A stretch of 22,092 nt of DNA from a virus. Every line of letters begins with the position of its first letter. The stretch's first letter is position 1. The stretch spans positions 1 through 22,092 of the IMG/VR virus record IMGVR_UViG_3300001533_001499; one strand, 5' to 3'. The notes below the pieces were generated by a model. The model did not search any database. It worked only from the letters and a program-made list of their open reading frames with translations, and was not told the origin of the DNA. Shown here in pieces: positions 2,179-22,092 of this stretch. Made by a program: the position numbers and the translations under genes.

Positions 2179-2228
2179 TCTTTCTCTTATTATTTCATTA
2201 AGAAAATATTTAAACAAAAGAAGGTAAG

Positions 2229-4940: not shown

Positions 4941-4952
4941 TTAATATATAGA
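4941..4952 (+). promoter_or_regulatory. Promoter-like motif upstream of the 416-residue protein
   Basis: TTAATATATAGA lies 21 bases before the ATG at 4974. It is the exact inverted partner of the phoH copy at 4913-4924. Assigned from recurrence of the motif at gene starts in the window. Confidence 0.5.
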
Positions 4953-4973: not shown

Positions 4974-6224
4974 ATGATTTACAAATTTAAAAAATTCTTT
5001 CTAATTGAAGCAGAGCAAGTAAGACCACCGATAGATGAAGTTGATGAGCTTGATGAAATTCTTGAAGATGAATATGATAGCATAAATCTTTCAAAAAGGC
5101 TTGAAAATCGTCTTAAAGAACTTAAAGAAAATGTAAGTAAAAAGATTGAAGTTGGTGATGAAGTATTCTTGAAGGATGAAAAAAAAGGAAAATTATCAGA
5201 TAAGGTATATGATTTTTTGAAGTCAAAAAATAAATTTAAAGTATTAAAAATAAATGATAAAGGAAAATTAGATATCGGGTATCGTTATAAATATATCCGA
5301 GAAGAGGATGGAAGAAAAGTAAAAAGAATTTTTTATTTTAGTCCAAGAAGATTTGAAAAAATAGATGTTTTAGATCCAGTTGCTCAATTTATATTATCTC
5401 TAAAAAATATAGAGAAGAAATATTTACTTGATTATCCGTTGGATTATTTAGATATTGATGAAAAAGGTAATTTATCATCTTTATCACGTAGGAATGTTGA
5501 AGCCGGTGTTGATCCATATAAATCTCCAAAAAGACAAATGAGTAGGTTAAATAAAATTCTTACAAGAATTGTTTTACCAGATTATTATAATAAGATGTTA
5601 AATCCACATATGATAGAAATTTTCTTAAATAAATGGCGAGTAATGTTTGATACAGATCTTCATGTAGAAGTTCTAGAAGGGGAAGCAATTTTAGAAGCAT
5701 ATAATTACCTGGGTAACTGTGATCCTAGTTGGATTTCAGCATCTTGTGCAAATTTCAGACCACAAGGCGCCTCCGGAGGCTCGTCGATGCTCCGACCACA
5801 AGGTACTGATAAATTTAGAGTGCTTACAGAAAACCCACAAATAAAAGCATTAATTGTTCGTCAACAAGGAAAGGTTATGGGAAGAAGAATTCTATTTGAA
5901 GGAGTTCAAACAAAAACTCATGGAAGATTTGAAGAAGGTAAAACATATAAATTTTTAAATAATTTTTATGGAAAATCAGGTAGTGGTGGTAAAGTAGATG
6001 CTACAATGATGCGTTGGGCAAGGGATAATGATGCTTATACACATCAAAACGTTAGAGGAGATGATATATTTCGAATAAAGGTAGATAAAACATGTTATCC
6101 ATCATATCCACCTATTGATTATATGTTTGTAAATTTCGATTTAAATGAATTTGCAAGTAAAAATCCAGAAGGCGGCGGTGGGTATGGATGGCGACAAGCA
6201 TATGGAGCAATCTGTAAAAAATAA
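4974..6224 (+). CDS. Phage protein with SCA-NP-GRRILFEG signature and capsid-targeting-like N-terminus
   Basis: A 416-residue protein. Residues 1-16 (MIYKFKKFFLIEAEQV) resemble the capsid-targeting start of T4 internal proteins, followed by an acidic linker (20-35) and a basic coiled helix. Residues 58-130 look like a small beta-barrel (VGDEVFLKDE...FKVLKINDKGKLDIGYRY). The C-terminal half holds SASCANFR (255-262), NPQIKALIVRQQGKVMGRRILFEG and FLNNFYGKSGSG...WARDNDAY. As I remember it, this spacing matches a family of uncharacterised phage proteins with SCM, NP, GRALLW and DRIYT motifs. That comparison is from memory and the function is unknown. Residues 266-277 are a GC-rich in-frame insertion. 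The leader is A/T-rich with no Shine-Dalgarno. A hairpin terminator follows the stop. An internal virion protein ejected with DNA is one hypothesis. Confidence 0.75.
   Translation: MIYKFKKFFLIEAEQVRPPIDEVDELDEILEDEYDSINLSKRLENRLKELKENVSKKIEVGDEVFLKDEKKGKLSDKVYDFLKSKNKFKVLKINDKGKLDIGYRYKYIREEDGRKVKRIFYFSPRRFEKIDVLDPVAQFILSLKNIEKKYLLDYPLDYLDIDEKGNLSSLSRRNVEAGVDPYKSPKRQMSRLNKILTRIVLPDYYNKMLNPHMIEIFLNKWRVMFDTDLHVEVLEGEAILEAYNYLGNCDPSWISASCANFRPQGASGGSSMLRPQGTDKFRVLTENPQIKALIVRQQGKVMGRRILFEGVQTKTHGRFEEGKTYKFLNNFYGKSGSGGKVDATMMRWARDNDAYTHQNVRGDDIFRIKVDKTCYPSYPPIDYMFVNFDLNEFASKNPEGGGGYGWRQAYGAICKK
5758..5803 (+). repeat. GC-rich palindromic insertion flanked by a 10-bp direct repeat
   Basis: GACCACAAGG occurs at 5758-5767 and again at 5794-5803. 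Between them are 26 bases, about 73% G+C in very AT-rich surroundings, containing the perfect palindrome GCCTCCGGAGGC at 5769-5780. The unit (26 bases plus one repeat copy) is 36 bases, exactly 12 codons. Removing it would leave an uninterrupted ...NFRPQGTDKF... This looks like an insertion with target duplication, or a templated duplication error, that kept the frame. Confidence 0.7.
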
Positions 6225-13088: not shown

Positions 13089-13152
13089 TACTGATAAATT
13101 GGATTTTTCCTAATTTATCAGTCATTAATTTGAAAAAAATTAAAAAAATATT

Positions 13153-13164
13153 TTAATATATAAA
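13153..13164 (+). promoter_or_regulatory. Promoter-like motif upstream of the tail sheath gene
   Basis: An exact TTAATATATAAA, 27 bases before the sheath ATG at 13192. The leader between them is A-rich without a Shine-Dalgarno sequence. Sheath is a late, highly expressed gene, so this is one of the best-supported copies. Confidence 0.6.
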
Positions 13165-13191: not shown

Positions 13192-16100
13192 ATGCCAATA
13201 GAAGATAAAAATTTAGGTAAATATAGAGTACCCGGAATTTATATCGAAGAAGTTGATCAGTCAGTAATCAATCTACCGATACAAGAGGTTTTAATTAATC
13301 TTGTTCCTGGTTTCTCTAGAAAAGGTCCATTTAACAACCCAACCAGGGTTAATAATATTTCAGAATTTGAAAGGATATTTGGATCTATTGACAAAGGATT
13401 GGAGACGAAAGGCTCTTATTTCCATAGAACAGTTGAAACAATGTTGGATCAAGGTCCAGTTTGGGCTTTGAATCTTTTGGCTACAGATCCAACAAGAGAT
13501 AAACTCGAGTGGAAATCAATCTCTTTGGCAACTCAATATGATAATGGTTCATTAATTTCTTCTCCATATGAAAGATTTTTCAATCGTCAAGATTTCTGGA
13601 TCAGAGACGATGATTCTTTTAATGATATTGTTATAGAAAATAACAATGGCGCGGAAGACGATGACCGATTATTACATATAACGAATATGTCTGATAAGGT
13701 GATAACGGTGTTTATGTTTAAGTCAGATGCCGCTGGATTTGATATATCAGCAGAACAATGGTATGGTGGTAGGAACAAGGTTCCTCTATTCATGAATTCA
13801 AAAGACATGATATCTGATTATCTAGTTAGTATATTAATTGTTTATGGTGATTGGTCAGATTACAAACAACTAAGTGGTGATGCTACATGGAGTGCATACT
13901 TCGGTGAAAGTGGTTTATATAAAACAAAAGTTGAAGATTTTGCAAATCATTATTTAGTAACAAGATTAGCTTATTACGATGCTTCTTTAATTCCTAATTT
14001 CAAGGACTTGAATAATCGTGATATGTATATAAAGAATATCATTAATAATGATACAGATAAAACTGGCTTGTTCTGTACATTCAATGAAGATATTCTTCTA
14101 AACGCGGATTCTTATCAAGGAAAAATTGATTTAATTGGTCAGACATTAGTTGGATTGGATGATGTTCCTGGTACACAACCAAAAACAACGATAGATTTCT
14201 TATCATATACAGATTCAATAAGTGAATCAGTTACATTTACAGAAAAAGGTCTTGATTCATCAGCCAATGTTTTTGGTAATTATGCAGCTGATATGACAAC
14301 AGCTTGGATATCTGGTAGAACAGCTGGTTATACAAACTGGTATACAAAGGATATAGCATCAACAGGATCATCCTCACTTTATACTGATTTAACATCTTGT
14401 GATGGAACAAATATCACACTTGCTTCTGTTACAGGATTAGATGTTGATGATGTGGTTTATTTCAGTAAGAATTTTGATACAATTGATAGAACAACTCCTT
14501 ATTATGTTAAAACTGTTGTTGGTAGTGATATCACAATATCAACAGAAAAAGGAGGACCACCATTAACAAGTATAAATACTGGTTCGACTACAGATATAGA
14601 TGTTTATAAAATATCGTATCAATTTGATGATAATGCATCGACAGGATTTTATAACATAGGTGGATATAGATATTATCTATCTGGTGAAACAGAAGCTTAT
14701 TTAGCTCCTTTTGTTATGACAAGTTCAGCACAAACTTATCAGAGATATGATGTTATATATTTAACCAGTACCGGTATCAGTAAGGTAACTGGAACACAGA
14801 CATTAACATCGGCATCAAAACCAAATTATCTTGTTAATAATAATAATTCAATAATCTTGGGTTATACATTAACATCATACGATGGAGCTGGTTCCTTTAC
14901 AATTAATTACACAGGGGTTACTGTTGATTCATCAGGTTATAAGAAGATTGATAGTAATTTCATATCTACTAACACAGGATCAACAACAACAGCGACATAT
15001 CTTGATATAATATTTGACGATACTTATGGTTCAAGTAGTGATTGGACAAATTATACAAAACTAAGAAGTCTAAAAATCTACGCTGAATTAGCAGCTAAAC
15101 TAGCCTTAGGTAAGGCTGTTGTAATAAATAAATCTAATGGATATAAATATGTAATTGAAACATACAGTTCTTATGATGCAACTGTAACAGAAAATGCAAG
15201 AATAAGAATTTATTTTGGATTAACTGATGATCCTTATGATTACATAGATACAGCAGATTTCATTCTTTATTATACAGATGATGAATTTCAAGTTGGTGAT
15301 GGTAGTGTTTCTCAGTTCACAACCACGTTAAAACCACAAATAGATGCAACCGAAGGTGTTATAGGTAAATATTCATCATTATATTTATCATATGTAAACG
15401 GTGTTATTAATAATGATGATTATTATTATGTTGATAATAATAGTGGTGACACCGCAGCTAGACAGTGGATAAGAATGTATCTTGATTCAAATAGAGATAT
15501 GGTTGTTAAATTCTTAAATCAATTAGATCCAGTGAATCTTACGACAATAGATCAATTTGATACTGGTTATGGTGGAGAATTGATCGTTCATTCAGAAAAA
15601 TCAAATTGGAAACAGACAGTAGAAATTGAAAATCCAAGTACGATAACTGATTCAACAAACACCACATCTATTTATGTTAAAAAGGATCGTTATTCAGAAA
15701 TAATAAAAGGAACATATCTAGAATCTTATTATGATACAAGTTATTATGATTATCCTGGAACAGGATATCTAAATGGTGAGATTCCAAGAAAATGGACAAG
15801 AATTCTTGATGTTAAGAATGATACAGTAGATACAACTCTTAAAATTCTTTACACAGATGCTCCTATTAAGATTTACACTCATAGTGATACATCTGGTACA
15901 ACAATAGAATACTTTACAACAAGTTACTACACAATTGATAATTACGTAAGTACTTACAAGGGTATAGCAATTAACCCATTCAAAGTACATGCTGATTCTA
16001 TTCCAAATAAAACAGAATCTCGCCAGGATAGTATTCTTGATGTTATTGCAAAAGGCACAAGACTTGCTCAAGGATTAACAAACAAAAATAGAATAACTTG

Positions 16101-16998
16101 GAGATACCTTGTTGATTCATTTGGTTTGGGATTAACATCCGATTCTAAACAGCAATACATAGATCTTTGTGGTGATAAGCTAAATGCATTAGGTTTCATT
16201 AACATGCCAAGTGCAAAAGATTTCAAGAAATCATCTAATCCAAGTTTCATAAGTTCAGATGGTTCATTGAGTATGGAATTCATAAAAGAAGGAGCTGATG
16301 CAAGTAAGAATCCAGACTTTTACTATTCATTTGGTGAAGGAGTTGGTAGATCTTGTGTATCTTACTGGTTCCCATATATTAAAACAGATGATGAGAGTTC
16401 CAAATTTATTCCACCAGCAGCTGAAATAGCAAAAACTTTCATGAATAAGTTTACAACTATTGACGCAAGTATTCGTCCTTGGACCATATTAGCTGGTGTA
16501 ATTCGTGGATCTCTAACAAATGTAAGAGAAACTGAAATTCGTTTCACATATGCAGATCTAGAATATCTACATGATATGGGATCAAATCCAATTGAATATG
16601 TTGAAAACTATGGATTTATAATCAATAGTGATAATTCGGCTCAAGTTTATCCATATTCATCCTTGAGTTTAATTCACTCTCGTGAAGTGTTGATTGAACT
16701 TGAAAATAGACTATATGATATGTTGTTGAATTATCACTGGAGATTCAATACTCCTGAAATTCGTGCAGAAATTAAGTATAGAGCAGATCAAATCTGTAAA
16801 GAACTTGCAGAAGCAGATGCAATATACGCTTACAGAAATGTTTGTGACAAAACAAATAACCCAGATTATATAATTGACTTACAAATGGGTGTTCTCGACA
16901 CCTATATTGAAATCATCAAGGGTATGGGTATAATTGTTAACCAAATTACTATACTTAGAAAGGGAACCATTGAGTCATCAGGTTTCTTACAAACATAA
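13192..16998 (+). CDS. Tail sheath protein (gp18-like) with a large internal insertion
   Basis: The contractile sheath subunit that surrounds the tail tube and shortens to drive it through the cell envelope. The N-terminus is typical: YRVPGIYIEEVDQS (9-22), LVPGFSRKGPFNNPTRVNNISEFERIFG and a FHRTVETMLDQGPVWALNL segment. The C-terminal part from about 920 to 1268 holds the conserved region (RQDSILDVIAKGTRLAQG, FPYIKTDDESSKFIPPAAEIAKTFM, IRPWTILAGVIRG, NPIEYVENYGFIINSDNSAQV and a long C-terminal helix-strand domain). T4 gp18 has 659 residues and this protein has 1268. The excess is a roughly 590-residue Ser/Thr/Tyr/Asp-rich, beta-type insertion at about 330-920, probably extra domains displayed on the sheath surface. 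Its own promoter-like motif lies upstream and a perfect hairpin follows. Two antisense ORFs within it are shadows. Confidence 0.95.
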   Translation: MPIEDKNLGKYRVPGIYIEEVDQSVINLPIQEVLINLVPGFSRKGPFNNPTRVNNISEFERIFGSIDKGLETKGSYFHRTVETMLDQGPVWALNLLATDPTRDKLEWKSISLATQYDNGSLISSPYERFFNRQDFWIRDDDSFNDIVIENNNGAEDDDRLLHITNMSDKVITVFMFKSDAAGFDISAEQWYGGRNKVPLFMNSKDMISDYLVSILIVYGDWSDYKQLSGDATWSAYFGESGLYKTKVEDFANHYLVTRLAYYDASLIPNFKDLNNRDMYIKNIINNDTDKTGLFCTFNEDILLNADSYQGKIDLIGQTLVGLDDVPGTQPKTTIDFLSYTDSISESVTFTEKGLDSSANVFGNYAADMTTAWISGRTAGYTNWYTKDIASTGSSSLYTDLTSCDGTNITLASVTGLDVDDVVYFSKNFDTIDRTTPYYVKTVVGSDITISTEKGGPPLTSINTGSTTDIDVYKISYQFDDNASTGFYNIGGYRYYLSGETEAYLAPFVMTSSAQTYQRYDVIYLTSTGISKVTGTQTLTSASKPNYLVNNNNSIILGYTLTSYDGAGSFTINYTGVTVDSSGYKKIDSNFISTNTGSTTTATYLDIIFDDTYGSSSDWTNYTKLRSLKIYAELAAKLALGKAVVINKSNGYKYVIETYSSYDATVTENARIRIYFGLTDDPYDYIDTADFILYYTDDEFQVGDGSVSQFTTTLKPQIDATEGVIGKYSSLYLSYVNGVINNDDYYYVDNNSGDTAARQWIRMYLDSNRDMVVKFLNQLDPVNLTTIDQFDTGYGGELIVHSEKSNWKQTVEIENPSTITDSTNTTSIYVKKDRYSEIIKGTYLESYYDTSYYDYPGTGYLNGEIPRKWTRILDVKNDTVDTTLKILYTDAPIKIYTHSDTSGTTIEYFTTSYYTIDNYVSTYKGIAINPFKVHADSIPNKTESRQDSILDVIAKGTRLAQGLTNKNRITWRYLVDSFGLGLTSDSKQQYIDLCGDKLNALGFINMPSAKDFKKSSNPSFISSDGSLSMEFIKEGADASKNPDFYYSFGEGVGRSCVSYWFPYIKTDDESSKFIPPAAEIAKTFMNKFTTIDASIRPWTILAGVIRGSLTNVRETEIRFTYADLEYLHDMGSNPIEYVENYGFIINSDNSAQVYPYSSLSLIHSREVLIELENRLYDMLLNYHWRFNTPEIRAEIKYRADQICKELAEADAIYAYRNVCDKTNNPDYIIDLQMGVLDTYIEIIKGMGIIVNQITILRKGTIESSGFLQT

Positions 16999-18283: not shown

Positions 18284-19234
18284 ATGGCACAAAATGATGA
18301 TGTTTTAAAACAGTTCATAAAAGATCAAACTGGTGGTGGAACAAAAATTGATAAAGTTAATGAAGTAAACATGGATACTTATAAAGAAAGTGTTGTTTAT
18401 GGTAGAGAATATATTTCAATTGATGTTAAATCCTTACCAGCTGGTGTTTTCTACAAAGAAGGTACAAGAATAAGCATTCGCGGAGCTTCTGTTGCTGAGG
18501 TTCAAGAATATTCAGTTGTAGATCAAGCAAATATAATGGATGTAACGGAAAAAATGAATAAGATTTTATCGCGTTGCGTTAGATTTATTCGTTCAGATGG
18601 TACTACGGGTAGTTATAGGGATTTAAAGGATAACGATCGTATATTCTTAATATTTATGATTAGAGAACTCACCTTTCAAAAAGGTAATAATTTAGCCAAG
18701 GAAGTCACTTGTGAAACTTGTGGTCATGAATTCAAAATTGAATATCGTGCTACCAATAGTGAAAGAAAACCTAATACTTTTGTAAATCATGAGATGAATG
18801 AAGAAATTGCTGAGTTTTTCAATCCAGATTTAAAAGTTTTTGAATTTGAAATTGATGATAAGGTCTATAGATTATCTCCACCATCTATTGGATTACAAGA
18901 ATCATTTTTCGAAAATCTTAAGGTGAATATACAGGAAAATCCTAACAAAAAACCAAATGTATCATTCCTAAAGATTATACCATTTACATTATATGATAGA
19001 ACGACTATAACAGCGGATGGTATAAAAGCAAAAGAAAAAGAATTTAGTGAAATGGATATGGATTCGTTCCAGACATTAGATTATGTTATCGATAGAATGG
19101 AATTTGGTATTAAAGAATTAAATTCAAAATGTCCTGTGTGCGGTGCGGAGGTCCGCACCGAAATGTCGTTTCCCTCAGGAGCAAAGAGTCTTTTCACTGT
19201 TTCAAGTCCACTTGAGAAACTTAAGAAAAAATAA
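18284..19234 (+). CDS. gp26-like baseplate hub protein with a split zinc ribbon
   Basis: A 316-residue protein resembling the T4 gp26-type baseplate hub/assembly family. The core shows IDVKSLPAGVFYKEGTRISIRGASVAEVQEYS (46-77), then a DVTEKMNKILSRCVRF helix and DRIFLIFMIRELTF (118-131). Two CxxC knuckles, C143/C146 (CETCG) and C283/C286 (CPVCG), probably join as one four-cysteine zinc ribbon enclosing the central domain. In T4 gp26 acts in hub assembly; baseplate assembly is the expected role here too. Its place downstream of sheath and tube fits a late morphogenesis cluster. Residues 287-291, right after the second knuckle, are encoded by a perfect 20-base GC-rich palindrome, unlike the AT-rich rest. 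The stop overlaps the next frame by 23 bases. Confidence 0.7.
   Translation: MAQNDDVLKQFIKDQTGGGTKIDKVNEVNMDTYKESVVYGREYISIDVKSLPAGVFYKEGTRISIRGASVAEVQEYSVVDQANIMDVTEKMNKILSRCVRFIRSDGTTGSYRDLKDNDRIFLIFMIRELTFQKGNNLAKEVTCETCGHEFKIEYRATNSERKPNTFVNHEMNEEIAEFFNPDLKVFEFEIDDKVYRLSPPSIGLQESFFENLKVNIQENPNKKPNVSFLKIIPFTLYDRTTITADGIKAKEKEFSEMDMDSFQTLDYVIDRMEFGIKELNSKCPVCGAEVRTEMSFPSGAKSLFTVSSPLEKLKKK
19141..19160. other. Perfect 20-bp GC-rich palindrome inside the zinc-ribbon gene
   Basis: CGGTGCGGAGGTCCGCACCG: CGGTGCGGA pairs perfectly with TCCGCACCG around GG. It is 80% G+C in an AT-rich gene and codes for residues just after the second CxxC knuckle. The frame is preserved. Confidence 0.75.
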
Positions 19235-19466: not shown

Positions 19467-19487
19467 TTTTTTCGGGGTATTTTTTTA
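19456..19487 (+). terminator. Rho-independent terminator
   Basis: CCCCGA (19458-19463) pairs with TCGGGG (19472-19477), followed by TA and a T-run. The stem overlaps the end of the small gene stopping at 19466. It closes the 18284-19466 unit, and its T-run merges into the next promoter-like motif at 19485. Confidence 0.88.
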
Positions 19488-19496
19488 ATATATACA
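19485..19496 (+). promoter_or_regulatory. Promoter-like motif upstream of the accessory cluster
   Basis: TTAATATATACA, one base from consensus, 23 bases before the ATG at 19520. It directly follows the terminator of the previous unit, as expected for a new transcription start. Confidence 0.5.
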
Positions 19497-19519: not shown

Positions 19520-19756
19520 ATGAAAACAAAATTCAATAATTTTTTAAATGAATCTGTATCCCGAATTCAATATAATATAGGTATAGATGAATTAGAATCA
19601 GGCGAAAGAGAAATTCAAAACAAAGCAGAGAGTTTGAATTTAAGTATTTCAATTTCAAGAACACCCGGAACCACTATGACGACTTTACTTATGAAAGTAG
19701 AAGGTGAAGACGATTCGATTGCTGAATTTAAAGATTGGTTAAAAAATGATTTTTAG
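19520..19756 (+). CDS. Small hypothetical protein with capsid-targeting-like N-terminus
   Basis: A 78-residue acidic protein with no known family. MKTKFNNFLNESVSR at the start is close in pattern to the capsid-targeting sequence of T4 internal proteins (Met-Lys-Thr, aromatic residues, then Phe-Leu/Ile-x-Glu). The remainder (SLNLSISISRTPGTTMTTLLMKVEGEDDSIAEFKDWLKNDF) looks like a small beta-strand pair and a helix, similar in size to a ferredoxin-like half domain. It begins the accessory cluster, with its own promoter-like motif, and the next gene follows after 20 bases. Packaging inside the head is a hypothesis only. Confidence 0.6.
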   Translation: MKTKFNNFLNESVSRIQYNIGIDELESGEREIQNKAESLNLSISISRTPGTTMTTLLMKVEGEDDSIAEFKDWLKNDF

Positions 19757-19776
19757 AAAATGATAGAAGTAATATC

Positions 19777-20259
19777 ATGAAATATTTAAAATATTTTGAA
19801 AATAAAAAGATAGAATGGGATGAAGAATGGGAAGAATCTCAGGAACAAAAGGATTGCAAACACATATGGGTAAAAAAGGTTGAAGGGGGAAGATTGGCAC
19901 CACCTATATATTATAAAGAATGCAAGTTTGAATCAAATATAGATTTTGATGATTGGGACATAGAAGAAGATGAAGATAATGTTCTTGAAACTAAAGGTAT
20001 AGTATATAAAACTATTAGAGATATAATTAGGGATAAATTTAATATTGAGATTGAAAGTATAAGTAAAACTTTTAAAGAAATGGGTATGGATGAATTGGAT
20101 TGTATAGAATTAATAATGGATACAGAATTTTTTTTGAATATGGCAATTCCTGATACAGAATTAAGTCATTTAACTAATGATGGTAATCTTTATAATGTTA
20201 AATTGGTGAGTTTTATTGATTTAGTTGAAAGAATATATTATTGGAATAAAAAAGATTAA
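19777..20259 (+). CDS. Acyl-carrier-protein-like protein lacking the phosphopantetheine serine
   Basis: A 160-residue acidic protein. It starts MKYLKYFENKK, the N-terminal pattern shared with 21690 and 22025. A linker rich in Trp and Glu follows, then a short Cys/His-containing part (CKHIWVKK...YYKECKF, 27-51). Residues about 75-155 match an acyl carrier protein: VYKTIRDIIRDKFNIE (first helix), then MGMDELDCIELIMDTEFFLNMAIPDTEL, aligning without gaps to the family's GxDSLDxVELVMALEEEFxxxIPDEE. The serine that would carry phosphopantetheine is Glu106, so it should not be an active carrier. A binding or regulatory role, perhaps targeting ACP partners such as lipid-modifying enzymes, is possible. 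It sits 20 bases after the previous gene. Confidence 0.65.
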   Translation: MKYLKYFENKKIEWDEEWEESQEQKDCKHIWVKKVEGGRLAPPIYYKECKFESNIDFDDWDIEEDEDNVLETKGIVYKTIRDIIRDKFNIEIESISKTFKEMGMDELDCIELIMDTEFFLNMAIPDTELSHLTNDGNLYNVKLVSFIDLVERIYYWNKKD

Positions 20260-20260
20260 T

Positions 20261-20437
20261 ATGAAAAGACTTACTAAACAAGAATTTATAGAAAGATGTA
20301 AAATAGTACATGGTAATAAATATGATTATAGTTTAGTTAATTATAAAAATTGTATGTCTAAAGTTAAAATAATATGTCCTGAACATGATGAAATAAAAGA
20401 TAATTATTGTAAAGATAATAATATTAATAAAATATAA
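20261..20437 (+). CDS. Truncated DUF723-like module (endonuclease-associated) remnant
   Basis: A 58-residue protein. Residues 6-44 (KQEFIERCKIVHGNKYDYSLVNYKNCMSKVKIICPEHDEI) match, from memory, the repeat module in phage homing or Vsr-like endonucleases, FIEKAxxVHGDKYDYSxVxYxNxxxKVxIxCPxHG. There the module continues with a FEQxPxxHLxGxGCPxC zinc-binding end. Here the H-G is H-D and the continuation is replaced by KDNYCKDNNINKI and a stop, so the second cysteine pair and any nuclease domain are missing. I start at ATG 20261, one base after the previous stop; an in-frame upstream ATG at 20225 lies inside that gene. It is likely a decaying fragment of a mobile endonuclease gene. Confidence 0.6.
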   Translation: MKRLTKQEFIERCKIVHGNKYDYSLVNYKNCMSKVKIICPEHDEIKDNYCKDNNINKI

Positions 20438-20472
20438 TAGAAAATTAAAATTTAATATTTTAGAAAAAATAA

Positions 20473-21693
20473 ATGAGTTTATTTATGAATAAAGAAATTC
20501 ATATGTTCGATTTGGATGGAACACTTTGGAACATAAAGTCTGAAATATGGTTGATCGATAAAGAAAACCCGCAAAGGCCAATTGTAAAAATAGATTCTTT
20601 AGAATTTTCGATGATTAAAAATGGTATGTTTCGAAAAGATGATATACCAATTGATTATAACGGGCAGAAGTTTTATATCAGTAAAAAAATATACAACAAG
20701 GTTTATAAACGTAAAGGATTTGAAAATTTAGATCGTTTAGGTATAAGTTTCATAGATTTTTATGATAAAGAAAAACTTAATAAAGCAGATAAAGATTTTA
20801 TTGTAGATAATATATCACATTTAAGGGGTAAAAAAGTTCATGTTGGTTTATTAACAGCTCGTTCAAGTCAACGAACACATTCTGATATTGTGAATGAACT
20901 TCGATTAGAGTTAAAAAATATGAATATTCCACTGAATAAAATATATTTTATTGGGGATAAGTTTAAAGTAACTCACGATGATATAATGAGTTTGAAAAAG
21001 GCTCATATATTATTAGAACATCTGATAGGATTCAAAATAAAAGATAATAAATTTATTCCTATACGTCAGGATTGGTATGACAATGTTCATTTTTATGATG
21101 ATAATTATACAAATATTAATTATGCAAATGATTTACAGAAGATATTTGAAGATGTTTTAACAAATACAGATGATGATTTATTTAAGATTATCCTGGAAAG
21201 AGTGGATTCAGAAGAACTGATATTAATTAATCATTTGGTTTCAAATAATGAAATTAAAAGATTCAAGGATACAAAAATAGTGTTGAAAGAACCTGGTAAA
21301 TTTCCAATTCAGTTAGAATCATTTTCTAGTTATTCTGGAATAATACTCGAAGAAGTAAATTCAAATAAATATTATAAGGTTGTAACAAAGGATTTGAAAT
21401 CTTTAGGGCTCAGAAACAATCCTACAATTATGGATTTTCCAGTTGGAGATTGGGTTTATGAACCAAATCCAACAGAAGGACCTGGTGGATGGGGTGGAAC
21501 CGGTGGTATTTGGGTTGCAAATGGATTGAGTCAAGGAAAAGGATTATTAAAATACATGCAAAAGAAAGCATTAAAAGAAAACGATGAAGAATTGAAAGAT
21601 TGTAGATTATTTGAAGTTGAGATCGGTAATGTTTTATATTCCAATTCTTATCGTTCAAAAGTGGATGCTGTAAAAATGATAAAAGAATTATGA
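20473..21693 (+). CDS. HAD-fold phosphatase-like protein with an extra C-terminal domain
   Basis: A 406-residue protein. The N-terminal half is a HAD-superfamily domain: motif I MFDLDGTLW (11-19) with D13 and D15, motif II VGLLTARSS (124-132), a motif III lysine near 175-176 and motif IV HFYDDNYTNI (207-216) with D209 and D210. The segment IDKENPQRPIVKIDSLEFSMIKNG and the LLEHLIGFKI helix resemble phage proteins annotated as Swiss-army-knife RNA-repair-like HAD domains, as I recall them. That would suggest a nucleic-acid-end or nucleotide phosphatase. The C-terminal half (about 265-406) includes DLKSLGLRNNPTIMDFPVGDWVYEPN, a Gly-rich GPGGWGGTGGIW and an IGNVLYSNSYRSKVDAVKMI end; its function is unknown. 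The next gene overlaps it by ATGA, so they are coupled. Confidence 0.75.
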   Translation: MSLFMNKEIHMFDLDGTLWNIKSEIWLIDKENPQRPIVKIDSLEFSMIKNGMFRKDDIPIDYNGQKFYISKKIYNKVYKRKGFENLDRLGISFIDFYDKEKLNKADKDFIVDNISHLRGKKVHVGLLTARSSQRTHSDIVNELRLELKNMNIPLNKIYFIGDKFKVTHDDIMSLKKAHILLEHLIGFKIKDNKFIPIRQDWYDNVHFYDDNYTNINYANDLQKIFEDVLTNTDDDLFKIILERVDSEELILINHLVSNNEIKRFKDTKIVLKEPGKFPIQLESFSSYSGIILEEVNSNKYYKVVTKDLKSLGLRNNPTIMDFPVGDWVYEPNPTEGPGGWGGTGGIWVANGLSQGKGLLKYMQKKALKENDEELKDCRLFEVEIGNVLYSNSYRSKVDAVKMIKEL

Positions 21694-22028
21694 AACACTT
21701 AAAATTATTTGAAGAAATAAAAGATATAGATCAATATTATTTTGGAGAAAATAAACCAGATCCTATCGATCCTTTTGGTGAAGAGGATTGGGATGAAGTA
21801 GAACCAGATGGTACTTTCCTTACGTGGCTAAAAAGAGAATACCCGGATAAAAATTCTTGGAAGAAAATAAAGGAAATAGATTGTTCTAATAATAATTTAA
21901 CTTCCCTAGAAGGAATAGAGAATTTAAGGAATTTAACACATTTATGGTATTATAATAATAATTTCAGTAATGATTATAAGAATTATCTAAAGAAATATTG
22001 TAAGGAAAATAAAATAATATTAAGATGA
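21690..22028 (+). CDS. Acidic protein with a leucine-rich-repeat-like segment
   Basis: A 112-residue protein. It opens with MKHLKLFEEIKD, the shared N-terminal pattern, followed by the acidic stretch DPIDPFGEEDWDEVEPDG (24-41). Residues about 62-95 (IKEIDCSNNNLTSLEGIENLRNLTHLWYYNNNFS) give one to two leucine-rich-repeat turns of the type LxxLxCxxNxLTSLxGIExLxxLxxLxxxxN; repeats of this kind usually bind proteins. It is coupled by ATGA to the HAD gene upstream and to the next gene downstream. It shares 32 identical bases with that gene, so the two are tandem paralogues in part. Function unknown. Confidence 0.7.
   Translation: MKHLKLFEEIKDIDQYYFGENKPDPIDPFGEEDWDEVEPDGTFLTWLKREYPDKNSWKKIKEIDCSNNNLTSLEGIENLRNLTHLWYYNNNFSNDYKNYLKKYCKENKIILR
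21768..21799 (+). repeat. 32-bp direct repeat, copy 1
   Basis: Identical to the last 32 bases of the window (22061-22092), coding DPFGEEDWDE in the same frame. The repeat may extend past the window edge. Confidence 0.9.
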
Positions 22029-22092
22029 AGTACCTTAAATATTATGAAAATATGGATATTGATCCTTTTGGTGAAGAGGATTGGGATGAAGT
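22025..22092 (+). CDS. Partial acidic protein, paralogue of the preceding gene (cut by window end)
   Basis: Only the first 22 residues are present, running from the ATG that overlaps the previous stop as ATGA. They read MKYLKYYENMDIDPFGEEDWDE. The start matches the pattern of 19777 and 21690, and DPFGEEDWDE is identical to residues 27-36 of the preceding protein at both protein and DNA level. This suggests a tandem array of related small genes continuing to the right. A leucine-rich segment downstream would be expected but is outside the window. Confidence 0.65.
   Translation, partial: MKYLKYYENMDIDPFGEEDWDE
22061..22092 (+). repeat. 32-bp direct repeat, copy 2
   Basis: Exact second copy of 21768-21799, 293 bases downstream, ending at the window edge. 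Identity of DNA, not only of protein, suggests recent duplication or gene conversion. Confidence 0.9.

Follow-up and report, generated by a model that had tools for sequence, protein, structure and literature searches.

A putative T4-type capsid-targeting tag on many unrelated proteins in a group of huge phages

The short tag found at the start of several unrelated proteins in the window (the whole stretch of DNA analysed, a 22,092-base virus fragment with 22 genes; IMG/VR record IMGVR_UViG_3300001533_001499, positions 1 to 22,092) is real and far more widespread than the window shows. Four complete genomes of related, uncultured phages encode 29–118 tagged proteins each, that is 4.5–12.5% of their proteins, where about 1–3 are expected. 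The tag is probably the mark of an expanded, lineage-specific T4-type capsid-targeting system, in which its bearers would bind the prohead core, be cleaved, be carried in the virion and be ejected. No description of such an expansion was found in the open literature searched.

Results

Judged by its tail sheath protein (13192..16998, + strand), which is untagged and 55% identical over its whole length to that of the uncultured 735-kb phage LR756501, the window comes from a huge phage that is a relative of the latter. The next sheath matches are 462–642-kb phages, Flavobacterium phage MaF61, Tenacibaculum phages and Lak phages. We take the group of LR756501-type records to be 'Mahaphage'. The largest phage reported in PMC7162821 is 735 kb. 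Searching with the sheath alignment gave 467 relatives, while PhoH as a single-protein query found no relatives. LR756501 (W01), LR756502 (W02), LR745206 (W03), LR756500 (W04), MaF61, PTm1 and T4 were analysed whole, and LR756504 over its first 220 kb (W07p); the genes of all these genomes were called with our own gene caller.

The five N-terminal starts singled out in the sequence-only reading of the window were all found in place. Three are short forms: MKYLKYFEN (19777..19803, +) on a degenerate ACP-like protein (19777–20259), MKHLKLFE (21690..21713, +) on a leucine-rich repeat (LRR) protein (21690–22028) with homologs in locus L199 (MKYIKEYNEYIDPFNEEDW), and MKYLKYYEN (22025..22051, +) on an ORF truncated by the contig end (MKYLKYYENMDIDPFGEEDWDEV). 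The start of the 78-aa protein 19520–19756, MKTKFNNFLNE|S (19520..19555, +), is indeed a tag, but not a 'looser' one as had been proposed: this long form is the best match to the T4 capsid-targeting sequence (CTS; F5, F8, L9, E11), and its orthologs in L198 and L201 read MNMKKFDDFLNES and MKRFKDYLNEDFLNES. The fifth, MIYKFKKFFLIE|A (4974..5009, +), opens a 416-aa protein (4974–6224) whose close orthologs all carry the tag, spelled differently (MIKGYLEYLNES, MKLKQYKDFIYEA, MIKFNEFFIQES); no relative of this protein was found in the PDB, and its structure prediction (pLDDT 46.5) was left unused. A sixth tag had been overlooked, MFKYFLNE (2194..2217, −), which has a TTG start and stands on a CCA-adding enzyme/tRNA nucleotidyltransferase (964–2217, −) with orthologs in W03 (MILKKYKMFLES) and W02 (MIITKYAKFLES). 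The T4-type baseplate protein (18284..19234, +) is untagged, as is the HAD-like protein (20473..21693, +), the latter also in the relatives listed. The domain of 19777–20259, earlier called ACP-like, is probably no working carrier, because Glu replaces the phosphopantetheine serine (DEL, where PDB carriers read DSL). Two tag patterns match four of the 22 window genes (P=1.8e-7 at a pooled internal-methionine rate of 0.23%), although these patterns were partly drawn from the window examples themselves, and the independent evidence is that of the genome-wide counts.

As control for chance, these patterns were also counted within the same proteins, at internal methionines. The recurrence noticed in the window extends to its relatives, in which the tag is strongly enriched at protein starts (within the first 10–20 residues) and rare internally: 61 tagged starts against 2.6 expected in W01 (979 proteins), 118 against 3.0 in W02 (946), 97 against 0.9 in W03 (918), 29 against 1.1 in W04 (644) and 21 against 1.3 in W07p. 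In a set of 80 IMG/VR loci that carry related sheaths, the tag stands on 96 of 1093 genes (2.7 expected), and the tagged loci include the nearest relatives of the window, L197, L198, L199 and L201. The tag rate of uncalled ORFs is 0–0.6%. T4 has three tagged starts (0.6 expected, 244 proteins), MaF61 one (0.0) and PTm1 one (0.3); the phages outside the group, other than T4, have 0–2. At the DNA level, counts of the tag pattern are near background in P-SSM2, HTVC008M, RM378 and RaK2, modest in KVP40, PAU and Aeh1, and 22 versus 4 in Lak, a 200-kb sample of which holds no tagged start. As far as the few phages tested go, such an expansion seems confined to this group. That the tag might be a general trait of T4-type phages was considered and rejected (tagged starts in the parts read: P-SSM2 2, KVP40 2, Lak 0).

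The motif was also recovered by an unseeded search, an anchored mixture model (EM), which replaced a ZOOPS motif search that the start methionine had swamped. It returned the tag in W01, W03, W04 and W07p (for example MKYIKEYEEFINE|A), as MI[KT]K[FY]xx[FY]xNE in W01, MK[YH]LKx[FY]xxFE and MIKK[YF]xxF[I]xE in W03, MK[Y]I[K]EY[E][ED]F[ILV]NE[S/A] in W04 and MKYLKxFE in W07p. No clean tag class was returned by EM on W02, in which the tag is seen by regular expression and 5-mer counts. The 5-mers most over-represented across unrelated proteins of W02, W03, W04 and W07p are MKHLK, MKYLK, MKYIK, YKIFE and KLFES; none of these is over-represented in T4, PTm1 or MaF61.

The tag is kept at the protein level, as had been supposed, and on bodies unrelated in sequence. 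Where two tags share a residue, they share its codon at roughly the rate predicted from codon usage (observed/expected 0.60/0.57, 0.61/0.51, 0.61/0.57 and 0.67/0.77), and the 116 tagged bodies of W02 fall into 112 families. When orthologs are matched without their first 20 residues, each genome has its local spelling (MRIKGYNKFVKED in W01, MKYLKKYKKYKES in W02, MRYIKSYKTFKES in W03), and three-way orthologs keep the class of tag while its letters change. Descent of the tag from one gene family or from duplicated 5′ ends might be suspected from the clustering of tagged genes (42 adjacent pairs in W02 versus 14 after shuffling) and from a few paralog groups, yet it is very improbable and largely refuted by the separate families, the randomised synonymous codons and the changing letters of orthologs. 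That the tag acts in translation, or as DNA at gene starts, would fit its position at the start codon and an AT-rich upstream element common to tagged genes; codons being as free as genome usage allows, the constraint lies on the amino acids, and this explanation, also largely refuted, has a negligible chance of being right.

The upstream element TTTAATATATA is start-proximal, late-promoter-like and common to tagged genes and virion genes. In the window it precedes the tagged gene at 19520 (19484..19494, +) and, for comparison, the untagged sheath gene (13152..13162, +); the tagged gene at 4974 is preceded by TTAATATATA (4941..4950, +). In W02 and W03, TAATATA stands upstream of 53–54% of tagged genes versus 22–25% of others (p=1e-9 and 3e-10). 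A shorter form, TATATA, precedes 57% of tagged, nine of nine structural, four of 12 replication and 36% of other genes in W01. The role of TAATATA may lie in late transcription, as a promoter, or else in translation.

In T4 IPIII, residues 4 and 7 carry targeting, while 8 and 10 serve processing (PMC9026906). The tag core [FY]xx[FY][ILV]xE has a spacing of i, i+3, i+4 and i+6, exactly that of these four residues. The aromatic pair at i and i+3 (Y4 and F7 in T4) was returned as [FY]xx[FY] by EM in W01, W03 and W04, and the long form adds the aliphatic residue at i+4, Glu at i+6 and a small residue next. P1′ is Ala or Ser in 59 of 140 long tags (42% versus a background of 10%, p=8e-23) and Asn is 7-fold enriched at P2; since the counting pattern already contains Glu at P1, independent evidence of cleavage comes only from P2 and P1′. 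The short form does without i+4 and i+6 and keeps E|S: Ala or Ser follows [FY]N?E in 85 of 161 short tags (53%) versus 10% at internal copies (p=1.5e-41). The three short tags of the window have no T4 I-x-E step, and they fit the aromatic spacing only loosely. Short and long forms are taken as one thing because of the Ser/Ala after Glu and because ortholog pairs carry either. By their agreement with the consensus, these are candidate sites of cleavage by the prohead protease.

The sequence-only reading held that its interpretation would fail if replication proteins were tagged equally. They are not: polymerase, helicase, clamp loader, recombinase, topoisomerase and reductase, as well as portal, sheath and terminase, are untagged wherever T4 homologs were detected, and the only tagged T4 homolog is RNA ligase 1, in W02 and W03. 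The PHROG labels do include 'DNA primase', at label level and not tied to one protein. The majority of tagged proteins belong to no family; those that do are mostly enzymes, namely PPK2 (W01, W02, W03), RNA ligase 1, DHH, NUDIX, PNK phosphatase and CCA-adding enzyme, with methyltransferases, radical SAM and LRR proteins, one GH108 endolysin-like protein and HNH nucleases. W03 also has a tagged fusion of a 2H phosphoesterase to an RNase_T exonuclease (448257–449573; L154:8257-9573:-); the match of the phosphoesterase to the anti-CBASS protein Acb1 is weak and under the cut-off.

A gp21-like protease, which the sequence-only reading proposed to look for, turned up in seven of eight relatives as an S77 domain; the window, a fragment, holds none detectable in a PF03420 search, nor a scaffold or capsid gene. 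Three of the seven matches exceed the Pfam cut-off (among W01–W04, that of W04) and those of W01, W02, W03 and W07 fall below it; in W01, W02 and W03 they sit between the portal and capsid genes, in T4-like order. A gp23-type capsid protein was found in all nine records searched. In the head gene cluster of W01–W04, the protease is part of a 632–807-aa protein with 15–24 [ILVFM]xE[ASGN] sites versus 3.5–3.9 expected (T4 gp22: 11 versus 1.5), and it appears from its sequence to join a gp21-type protease to a long stretch that resembles a scaffold and is crowded with [ILV]xE|[ASNG] sites of the tag type. The capsid proteins of the relatives have a conserved INE|N or similar, a candidate cleavage site, in the N-terminal arm.

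Discussion

The T4-type capsid-targeting interpretation is supported by the motif spacing, the cleavage-site statistics and the start element common with virion genes, as well as by the gp21-type protease and gp23-type capsid protein of the relatives and by the lack of a tag on detected replication homologs. It suggests that phages of this group load dozens of different enzymes, some of them anti-defence-like, into the capsid. The paired aromatic residues would dock 30–120 unrelated proteins per genome onto a prohead core that consists here of one gp21 protease/gp22 scaffold fusion. Cleavage by this protease behind the Glu of the tag (FINE|A, IFE|S, FLNE|S) would release the proteins within the head, from which they would pass into the next host along with the DNA. 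Some of this cargo (endolysin-like, HNH, LRR) could instead act late in the producing cell, unpackaged. Several observations count against this interpretation. T4 internal proteins are basic, whereas the tagged proteins of W02 and W03 are slightly acidic; the distinct cargoes far outnumber those of T4; and the window has no detectable protease or capsid gene, while its short tags lack the I-x-E step.

Like the CTS of T4 IPI, IPII and IPIII (Mullaney & Black; reviewed in PMC9026906 and PMC3012670), the tag is N-terminal, stands on unrelated bodies and combines aromatic residues at i and i+3, an aliphatic one at i+4 and Glu at i+6, followed by Ala/Ser; an S77 protease and a gp23 capsid protein occur in the related phages. 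Unlike the T4 signal, it is carried by 29–118 proteins per genome rather than three, has several spellings, including the short form without I-x-E, and has named cargo that consists mostly of enzymes; the scaffold, moreover, appears fused to the protease. The head propeptides of SPN3US and phiKZ (PMC5694885) are likewise N-terminal on ejected head proteins, and thought to serve targeting and to be cleaved, but they are mostly >100 residues long, occur on few proteins and have another cleavage motif, whereas the tag is T4-like and of 10–14 residues. The packaging signal of P1 DarB (PMC9024508) is N-terminal as well and directs an anti-restriction protein to the inside of the capsid; the Dar proteins, however, have no consensus by BLAST, and no T4-type spacing is reported for them. 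Starts with the same motif occur in KVP40 (MKQFCNFLAE), P-SSM2 (MKSFKQFLEE) and the hypothetical protein of T4 gene 61.1 (MKTFKEFIKE; 18966–19130, −), but, in contrast to the group, no more than a handful were seen per genome in the parts read.

It is conceivable, if unlikely, that the tag sorts proteins to another site in the cell, such as a replication site, a membrane or a phage-made body. The enzymatic nature of most tagged proteins of known family would suit such a destination, as would a C-terminal tag in relatives that is mutually exclusive with the N-terminal one and whose existence means that there may be more than one destination. The match to the mapped T4 positions, the Ser/Ala after Glu, the recurrence of such sites in scaffold and capsid protein and the lack of a tag on the replication proteins detected would then be left unexplained. 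We give still less credence to the idea that tagged proteins are head-assembly helpers that, once part of the scaffold core, are broken down or expelled in maturation, not ejected effectors. T4 gp22, gp67 and gp68 do behave in this way (PMC9026906, PMC5694885), and some tagged proteins have further LxE sites, for example MVKKYFEFINENFELILESD; intact enzyme families such as PPK2, RNA ligase, Acb1-like and DHH, on the other hand, have no evident role in head assembly.

If capsid targeting is indeed the role of the tag, the first 14 residues would predict which of the mostly unknown proteins of giant phages travel in the virion. The payload would comprise an Acb1-like phosphoesterase, tRNA repair enzymes, PPK2, NUDIX proteins and methyltransferases, present in the host ahead of all phage gene expression, which would directly explain how defences are blunted at entry. 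The tags would also be a natural set of capsid-loading signals.

The C-terminal tag, xIRDxK[IL]xxILx, lies about 10 residues from the end of 115 proteins in W02 and 114 in W03 (12–13% of proteins in each for RDxK[IL]xxIL). Of these, none in W02 and one in W03 are also N-tagged; with a stricter pattern the two tags never occur together (0 in W02 and 0 in W03; p=9e-5 and 3e-4). TAATATA precedes 6–10% of C-tagged genes in these two genomes. In W07p, dozens of proteins bear a C-terminal tag that is spelled differently, E[YH]RKxxIxxLL or RKxRIxxLN, and W04 has a C-terminal repeat containing NADDFG in ~12 proteins, several of them probably paralogs. It is tempting to speculate, tentatively, that a two-signal sorting code exists, in which the N-terminal CTS-type tag (~10% of proteins) would lead to the capsid and delivery and the exclusive C-terminal tag to another fate, each lineage having its own spelling.

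A further motif, DPYGEExW, has 109 copies in ~82 families of W01, often C-terminal, and is absent from W02–W04, T4, MaF61 and PTm1; copies at the DNA level were found in W01, all in frame. The window has DPFGEEDW twice, after the tag of the LRR protein (21768..21791, +) and directly after that of the ORF cut by the contig end (22061..22084, +).
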